Part shown: positions 44,024 to 47,980 of the stretch, piece after piece | How the letters are laid out: every line of letters begins with the position of its first letter | Numbering within the stretch: position 1 is the first letter of the stretch | Assembly (NCBI GenBank): GCA_018830085.1 | Contig: JAHJSR010000017.1 | Location: 1-47,980 of the forward strand | Direction: 5' to 3' | Length of the DNA: 47,980 bases | From: Patescibacteria group bacterium | GTDB taxonomy: Bacteria > Patescibacteriota > Patescibacteriia > 2-12-FULL-60-25 | The notes under the pieces: model-generated | Seen by the model: the letters and a program-made list of their open reading frames with translations, nothing else | The model's database searches: none | Told to the model about the DNA's origin: nothing | Program-made: the position numbers and the translations under genes

Positions 44024-44737
44024 ATGATAACATTCGAACAACTCGATTTTAAACCGTTAGAACAACGGCTTGGTTATGAATTTAAAGATAAAAAATTTAT
44101 TATCGAAGCCTTAACTCACAGATCATATTTAAACGAACACACCGACCATCCTTATGATCACAATGAGAGACTCGAGTTTTTAGGTGATGCAGTTTTAGAG
44201 CTAGTTGTTACAGAAAACTTATATTTAAACTATCCAAATCCCGAAGGCGAACTAACTAACTGGCGAGCCGCTTTAGTAAATGCAAAAACCTTAGCAGGAA
44301 TAGCAACACAATTGGATTTTGAGGAATACCTATTATTATCCAAAGGTGAAGCCAAAGATAAAAATTCCAAAGCCCGAATGTACATCTTAGCCAATGCCAT
44401 AGAAGCTATTATTGGTGCAATATATTTGGATGGTCATTGGGAAGGAGCAAAACAATTTATAGATTCTTTCATTTTGAGTACGCTTCCTTACATATTAAAA
44501 AATAAATTATACATTGATCCTAAAAGTCGTTTTCAAGAAACTGCTCAAGAGATGCTTAGCGTTACACCAAATTACAAAGTACTCAAAGAAACCGGACCGG
44601 ATCATAACAAAGAATTTACAGTTGGTGTTTTCTTGGACAAGGATCTCGTTGCTGTTGGTAGCGGAACCAGCAAACAAGAAGCGCAAATCGCTGCTGCCGA
44701 AGCCGGATTGGAAGTTAAAAACTGGAACGTAAAATAG
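44024..44737 (+). CDS. rnc: Ribonuclease III
   Basis: ERLEFLGDAVLELVV signature; C-terminal dsRBD. Confidence 0.97.
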   Translation: MITFEQLDFKPLEQRLGYEFKDKKFIIEALTHRSYLNEHTDHPYDHNERLEFLGDAVLELVVTENLYLNYPNPEGELTNWRAALVNAKTLAGIATQLDFEEYLLLSKGEAKDKNSKARMYILANAIEAIIGAIYLDGHWEGAKQFIDSFILSTLPYILKNKLYIDPKSRFQETAQEMLSVTPNYKVLKETGPDHNKEFTVGVFLDKDLVAVGSGTSKQEAQIAAAEAGLEVKNWNVK

Positions 44738-46679: not shown

Positions 46680-46705
46680 AACCGCCGCTACTACCCGGCG
46701 GTTGA
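46680..46705 (+). terminator. Hairpin/possible terminator after the 46401 gene
   Basis: AACCGCCG CTACTACC CGGCGGTT, weak T tract. Confidence 0.4.
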
Positions 46706-46860: not shown

Positions 46861-46889
46861 TTGACAAAATCCCAAAAATATGATATATT
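46861..46889 (+). promoter_or_regulatory. Strong sigma70-type promoter
   Basis: TTGACA-N17-TATATT, near consensus. Confidence 0.8.
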
Positions 46890-46895
46890 AATACG

Positions 46896-47290
46896 TCAAA
46901 CTGAAATAACCGTGCCAGATACACATTACACAGTTTGAACACTTCAGAGGAGAGAGGATTTGAGCCAAGCTCGAATCAACAAAACTGAAGTAAGATAAGC
47001 GTAAATAACGGATGAGGAGCCGTAAACGCCTGATTTGAATACGCAAAAATAGACCACGGAGACCATCTCCGAGGAGGATTTTTAACATAAACAAACATGT
47101 TGTGATCTTAGACCCGGCCTTGCAATCCATGCTTTTGCAAAGCCGACCCAAGTTTCATAACTCAAAATTAATCAACCGCTCATCGACAAAATACTACCAA
47201 TGACCATGAACCAATCATGAACATTGGCAGCGCCACGATCTTGGACATTGTGTCCTCGCTTCGTGGTGTCAAAAAGTTCAGGAGAAAAAA
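46896..47290 (+). ncRNA. Candidate long structured leader/ncRNA
   Basis: At least six perfect or near-perfect hairpins between a strong promoter and the first downstream CDS; no credible long ORF. Confidence 0.55.
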
Positions 47291-47572
47291 ATGCTGGAAG
47301 TAACGATTTTCGTAATCATCGCGCTGTTTGTATCAGGAACCTGGATCGCCCTGCGGTCCCGAGTCCTGACCGCGATGCAGAACATCGTGGCCAACAGCAA
47401 AACCTCAACCCCCTACCTCCCGGCTCCGATCGAGGACATCAACGTTCTCGATCCCGCTGACTTCCCCGAGGAAATCAGAGAACTGCTCAAGGAAGCTGCC
47501 TTCCGAGACCTATACTCGGCTGACGAGCTCAAAGCTCTGAAAGCTGAGATGGACAGCCGCAAAGCGGCATAA
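47291..47572 (+). CDS. Small single-TM protein with acidic tail, unknown (93 aa)
   Basis: AGGAG ribosome site; MLEVTIFVIIALFVSGTWIAL TM; GC-rich. Confidence 0.75.
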   Translation: MLEVTIFVIIALFVSGTWIALRSRVLTAMQNIVANSKTSTPYLPAPIEDINVLDPADFPEEIRELLKEAAFRDLYSADELKALKAEMDSRKAA

Positions 47573-47586
47573 CGAGGAGAAAACAC

Positions 47587-47856
47587 GTGCTAACAGCTAT
47601 TTTTTTGTCCTTTTTCGTCTCCACATTCTTCTCGGCTATGGTCGGCTTGCCGATCGTAGCCGACATCATGAACAAGGCCGTCGAGAACGACGTCGAGCGA
47701 GCGATCGCCAACCTCACCGGTGAGGAGCATCCCTTGCTCCAGCTCGATGAACCTTTCGAGGGTATGGCTCACCGCCCGCTCTCGCTTTCGCAACTCGAAC
47801 TGGAGCTGTACAGCGACGAGGCAGCTGTCGCACAACGCGACAGCCTGGCCGCCTGA
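47587..47856 (+). CDS. Small single-TM protein with acidic tail, unknown (89 aa, GTG start)
   Basis: GAGGAG ribosome site before GTG; MLTAIFLSFFVSTFFSAMVGLPIV TM; C-terminal motif shared with previous gene. Confidence 0.7.
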   Translation: MLTAIFLSFFVSTFFSAMVGLPIVADIMNKAVENDVERAIANLTGEEHPLLQLDEPFEGMAHRPLSLSQLELELYSDEAAVAQRDSLAA

Positions 47857-47953: not shown

Positions 47954-47980
47954 TGACAAGGTTAAAAAATAAATTAATGA

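Follow-up and report, generated by a model that had tools for sequence, protein, structure and literature searches.

A possible attenuator-like leader RNA with an exposed purine strand in Patescibacteria

In the glycine riboswitch aptamer, a GGAGAG stretch lies beside the first helix. The CcsR or CCUCCUCCC-motif small RNAs of Alphaproteobacteria (Rfam RF02791) expose an anti-Shine-Dalgarno-like pyrimidine loop. Attenuators with alternative antiterminator and terminator structures include the trp, his, and r-protein leaders, such as that of Bacillus subtilis rplJL (PMC4538822). Here, we analyzed a DNA stretch of 47,980 nt (hereafter, the window), which is contig C2 of a 1.23-Mb Patescibacteria genome in 132 contigs and ends with that contig at 47980. 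The closest named relative of this genome is Candidatus Uhrbacteria Bin_582. Our preferred reading, which we favor while holding it somewhat short of probable, is that 46896–47083 may be the window copy of an undescribed Patescibacteria RNA working as an attenuator-like 5' leader (table 1).

Table 1. Features of the putative leader and its downstream genes.
Feature	Position	Strand	Evidence and comparison
Extended −10 sigma70 promoter TTGACA-N17-TATATT	46861–46889	+	Sequence; same promoter in G007, G008
Hairpin 1, TCAAACTG/CAGTTTGA	46896–46938 (arms 46896–46903/46931–46938)	+	Pair probability 0.87–1.0
ACCGTGCC, start-proximal YCGTRCC motif	46909–46916	+	Common to leaders of other strong promoters
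Core: P1 ACTTCAG/CTGAAGT (46941–46947/46985–46991) around purine strand and P2	46941–46991	+	Fold; conserved in G007, G008
GAGGAGAGAG, single-stranded purine strand of core	46947–46956	+	Identical at corresponding loci in G007, G008, G006, G001, G102, G176, G131
P2 hairpin GATTTGAGC-CAA-GCTCGAATC	46957–46977	+	Fold; two pairs changed on both sides versus G008
Hairpin 3, outer stem GCGTA/TACGC displaying GAUGAGGAG region	46999–47044	+	Fold; not seen in G007/G008
Terminator-like hairpin AAAAAT..CC.CGGAGA-CCA-TCTCCG.GG..ATTTTT	47045–47083	+	Fold; spacing agrees with class
Hairpin CGGC.TTGCAA/TTGCAA.GCCG	47115–47145	+	Fold; homologue not found
Hairpin CCAATG..CATGA/TCATG..CATTGG	47197–47227	+	Fold; homologue not found
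Hairpin CCACGA..GGACA/TGTCC..TCGTGG, just 5' of RBS	47233–47266	+	Fold; homologue not found
First downstream gene, 93-aa small protein, hydrophobic N-terminus	47291–47572	+	SD AGGAG 47280–47284; G007 same-operon homologue, 34% identity
Second downstream gene, 89-aa small protein	47587–47856	+	Homologue not found

A preliminary description of this region had reported a near-consensus promoter with no plausible long open reading frame before 47291, and our analysis bears out both points. The promoter consists of TTGACA (46861–46866), a 17-nt spacer, and TATATT (46884–46889) with an extended −10 TG; it matches 11 of 12 positions and is the top promoter of the region in a promoter scan. Upstream of it are a Rho-independent-like hairpin (46680–46703) and then an AT-rich stretch. 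The strict pattern TTGACA-N14-TGnTATAnT has 46 copies in four genomes of the genus, compared with none for a reversed-pattern control. The longest sense frames in 46896–47290 are one of 33 aa, which begins at GTG and lacks a normally spaced SD, and one of 28 aa; neither is convincing, and a coding region was rejected. An AARCCGTRCC motif was also observed in transcripts from strong promoters, at a fixed place about 15–20 nt from the start (the window and six other leaders; 7 places in 41 genomes, reversed control 0), and a boxA-like GTTCTTTAA opens several transcripts behind strong promoters (e.g., L222, L223, L218, and L204).

The dense structure proposed for 46896–47290 (395 nt) was recovered by folding (MFE −106.3, z = −5.4, 0 of 100 shuffles as good), and the corresponding leaders of genomes G007 and G008 also fold with z about −5.4. 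For 47 further stretches of 395 nt taken from the window, the mean z is −0.77 (lowest, −5.16). Strong folding occurs elsewhere too, in the downstream ORF 47291–47572 (z = −5.0) and the upstream region (z = −4.6); folding energy alone is weak evidence and cannot single out the leader, given that this ORF is just as strongly folded. All hairpin arms listed in the preliminary description read as given, including those of a GCGT/ACGC plus ACGG/CCGT helix at 46999–47029, but the preferred fold gives this helix a probability of 0, and GCGTA (46999–47003) prefers TACGC (47040–47044) as its partner. Hairpin 1 was absent from that list. Pair probabilities are 0.90–1.0 for P1, about 1.0 for P2, and 0.76–1.0 for CGGAGA/TCTCCG, the core of a longer A-run/T-run hairpin whose extension had gone unnoticed. 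TCTCC (47066–47070) could be a long-range partner of GGAGA (46949–46953), by 5 bp only. The last ~200 nt of the leader are rich in hairpins for which homologues were not found. Thus, what had been described as one regulatory leader or noncoding RNA of ~395 nt and of an undescribed class is indeed noncoding, structured, strongly promoted, and not in Rfam, but it is not uniform over its 395 nt: the conserved module is ~190 nt (46896–47083) with a terminator-like hairpin at its end.

Searching 57 related genomes at the DNA level gave matches of two sorts, one to the promoter and the other to a short stretch (46942–46966) found in G007 and G008, both from the genus of the window. The 24-mer, with up to 3 mismatches, is present in only 3 of 41 family genomes. 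The three positional orthologues (the window, G007:C77, and G008:C33) have the promoter, a nearly identical core, and flanking genes in common, and all keep CTTCAG-AGGAGAGAGG-P2-(optional P3)-CTGAAG; a 17-nt run and both helices survive, and the remaining leader has mostly diverged and is largely unalignable. Of the recurring GGAG motifs noted earlier, that at 46948–46956 proved to be the best conserved part, but the copies at 47012 and 47071 are unconserved in the G007 and G008 leaders. P2 has arms GACTTGAAC/GTTCGAGTC in G008, with no pairs broken and two compensatory changes (T-A versus C-G and G-C versus A-T). P1 is invariant across the three sequences and therefore gets neither support nor contradiction from covariation. 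A core model built from these sequences gave strong scores in 381 genomes for the window, G007, and G008 only (the E-values of this short-calibrated model are rough), its other hits being mostly coding or partial. Among other class members, the window-type model gave one weak hit and left the rest unscored. Viral contigs yielded neither a core match nor a relative of the zinc-ribbon protein, and near NlpC/P60 homologues in other genera synteny is lost and the leader was not found.

In this genus, several leaders that follow this type of promoter show (A)AGGAGAG in a hairpin and a downstream CUCUCC in the terminator (G006:C4, G006:C10, G007:C39, G008:C5, and G000:C53). We searched 381 class genomes with the pattern AGGAGAG-N84..114-CTCTCC-N8..30-T6 and detected 16 places versus 7 for a reversed control; of the 16, 8 have a local hairpin and are preceded by a promoter-like sequence. 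In these relatives, GGAGAG in the 5' hairpin can pair with CUCUCC in the terminator loop or 5' arm, 80–120 nt downstream, as in GGAGAGAGCCG/CGGCTCTCTCC (G006:C10), GGAGAGCGA/TCGCTCTCC (G008:C5), and GAGAGAGCT/AGCTCTCTC (G000:C53). Two covariation tests were run. The first, with a fixed register that is wrong for members with partner CUCUCUCC, was nonsignificant (P = 0.19). Without a register, own partners of 12 members, partly picked by the search pattern itself, formed 7.8 Watson–Crick pairs versus 6.8 when swapped (P = 0.00034), and duplex energies differed likewise (P = 0.00004). Covariation in homologues, which the preliminary description had named as a check, is real but thin, with three close sequences of the window type and twelve of the wider class.

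In the window, GAGGAGAGAG is unpaired beside a helix according to the fold, as in the class, and lies 87 nt from the promoter (class range 65–180 nt). AGGAGAG precedes the T-run by 131 nt (106–143 nt in the 11 class members in which a T-run was identified), and where the class has CUCUCC 75–120 nt downstream in a T5–T7 terminator, the window has ATCTCC at 116 nt and a T5. We read the window RNA as a putative divergent member because promoter, spacing, purine strand, exposure, and, on the rnc side, neighborhood are shared but the partner is only TCTCC. With these 5 pairs and the T5, and with no CUCUCC partner found in the G007 and G008 leaders, toggling is only conjectural in the window type.

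Gene neighborhoods were then compared. The window, G007, and G008 share the order NlpC/P60 gene, lipoprotein-like gene (opposite strand), small gene, promoter, leader, and small hydrophobic proteins, followed in G007 and G008 by zinc-ribbon proteins. The first downstream protein of the window has no Pfam hit. In G001:C4 and G006:C4, also from this genus, GAGGAGAGAG again stands behind a promoter, between an RNase III gene on its upstream side and a convergent DUF4012 gene on its downstream side; the convergent 640–650-aa gene of G006 recurs in G007 and G008. The window carries rnc (RNase III) at 44024–44737, and its DUF4012 side falls beyond the contig end. A second shared site is divergent from a TrmB-like regulator (G000:C53, G006:C10, and G315). 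In three genomes of another family (G102, G176, and G131), the GAGGAGAGAG RNA comes after glycosyltransferase and DUF4012 genes. In these three, as in G001 and G006, it follows a promoter at a comparable distance, and most of these five loci carry a CUCUCC further down within a terminator. Altogether, GAGGAGAGAG sites correspond among five species from the genus and three from the other family. Sixteen copies were counted in 200 kb of strand around DUF4012 loci, and 8 of these were neither known nor preselected (one is coding), compared with 2 unexplained copies in ~596 kb of background.

In addition, GAGGAGAGAG bulges from the interior of long, rod-like inverted repeats (L084/L264 in G001:C4, minus strand; L273 +6079 in G006:C4; L268 −2378 in G110:C15), near the same DUF4012 loci in G001 and G006 and beside the unit in G110. 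Another conserved RNA-like unit of ~430 nt lies behind a strong promoter in all four genus genomes searched (L194, L202, L222, and L233 in G007:C3, G000:C43, G006:C13, and G008:C44), with the layout AGAGGAGG ... CCGGTTTCGACTGG ... GTGGAGGAGAG or a close variant and a CCCCTCC end in copies read through. Rfam and ARAGORN gave no hits in the copies tested, and its GGTTTCGAC might recall tmRNA. A recurring leader before exported-protein genes has a GAGCCGTTTCATGG-like stem around UCUUCCUCCUCA or UCCUCC (L217 in G007:C94, L227 in G008:C10, and L009 in G026:C3), and at L216, L206, and related loci a variable RNA middle often has short tandem repeats such as TAACATGTAGCATG.

A possible mechanism is that the strong promoter drives a leader comprising hairpin 1, P1 around unpaired GAGGAGAGAG and P2, and the A-run/T-run hairpin, leading into the small-protein operon. 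The purine strand would toggle between its own hairpin and pairing with the terminator strand, and its occupant (30S subunit, initiating ribosome, or RNA-binding protein) might set read-through into the operon. What we observe is the promoter sequence, the noncoding character, the fold, the conservation, and covariation in P2 and, at other loci, in the long-range pairing; transcription, toggling, termination, the ligand, and the direction and effect of control on the operon are inferred.

The homologues suggest either a leader of this attenuator-like kind or else a small RNA whose terminator is leaky. In the latter case, a stand-alone RNA of ~190 nt would be made from a promoter of its own and end at a weak terminator, with the operon reached by read-through or from another promoter, and its CUCUCC or GAGGAG loops would target Shine-Dalgarno regions or ribosomes in trans. 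The other family, which has no conserved downstream gene, fits this better than a leader: units in G102, G176, and G131 close with a T6 terminator and are followed by differing genes, and at the TrmB locus the divergent regulator is conserved and the downstream genes differ. However, within the genus the unit runs into same-direction small-protein or zinc-ribbon genes, the window terminator is weak (T5, with the T-run within the stem), and the scan found no second plus-strand promoter before 47291. We consider the stand-alone RNA rather unlikely in itself, yet nearly as likely as the leader because downstream genes are unconserved outside the genus. An ordinary structured 5' UTR, whose hairpins stabilize the mRNA or insulate genes and whose core serves one locus-specific protein without any switch, seems less likely still. 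It would agree with the strong folding of neighboring regions and with the hairpin-rich intergenic regions of the G007 and G008 operons, but not with retention of the 17-nt run and both helices amid a mostly diverged leader, nor with recurrence of the 10-mer at corresponding sites in two families.

Two further possibilities concern the core itself. AGGAG-7 nt-TTG might start a short ORF whose translation controls downstream structure; SD, spacing, and TTG are found in all three orthologues (12, 17, and 9 codons in the window, G007, and G008), but the peptides have no common sequence, the UUG sits within P2, and most other class members lack a start codon at this place, which makes a leader peptide quite improbable. 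The core could also be antisense to a tRNA 3' end, pairing with tRNA-Leu(GAG) or deriving from a tRNA gene, and this appears the most far-fetched reading. The 19-mer GAGGAGAGAGGAYTTGARC matches mostly tRNA antisense strands (85,000 genomes), and tRNA-Leu(GAG) is the longest class II tRNA match in all three genomes (15–17 pairs including G-U), with 0–1 of 40 shuffles matching as long. On the other hand, the predominance of tRNAs among such hits reflects their abundance, duplex energies are not clearly beyond shuffles, changes in the window are compensated within P2 and not toward the tRNA (G-U only kept), and the TTGAAC part is missing from other class members.

Returning to the attenuator-like leader, a broader proposal is doubtful: a widespread undescribed Patescibacteria family might occupy several conserved sites (DUF4012, TrmB-type divergent, and others), expose GAGGAGAGAG beside or in a hairpin, in many cases together with a terminator whose CUCUCC covaries with it, and sense free ribosomes or an RNA-binding protein via the SD-like strand. 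If true, a recurring promoter-driven RNA with covarying long-range pairing at conserved sites in several families would offer a concrete and testable way into the gene control of these reduced, little-studied, and mostly uncultured bacteria, and a new family would enter Rfam. We found no regulatory RNA described for Patescibacteria in the open-access literature, which, covering only that literature, lends weak support to novelty.

Comparison with Rfam 15 detected only tRNAs at or above gathering threshold in the window and class loci; in a relaxed search of the leader, all matches had E ≥ 0.45 and were far below gathering. T-box leaders and the glycine riboswitch were rejected, neither matching even in the relaxed search. 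T-box leaders resemble this RNA in tRNA-related complementarity of the leader, but here there is no T-box sequence, specifier loop, or synthetase gene. The likeness to the glycine riboswitch is GGAGAG, without a CACCGAAG-type conserved core or glycine genes. The CcsR family of Rfam likewise gave no match, and the present RNAs differ from CcsR in that the strand conserved as single-stranded is the purine one, whereas their pyrimidine strand, CUCUCC, belongs to a terminator. Unlike trp, his, and r-protein attenuators, the window leader has no leader peptide with regulatory codons and no known ligand or protein, its purine strand is Shine-Dalgarno-like, and its pairing partner is incomplete. What it shares with attenuators is the arrangement of a promoter, a noncoding leader of ~100–200 nt, an upstream strand complementary to part of the terminator, and an operon downstream.
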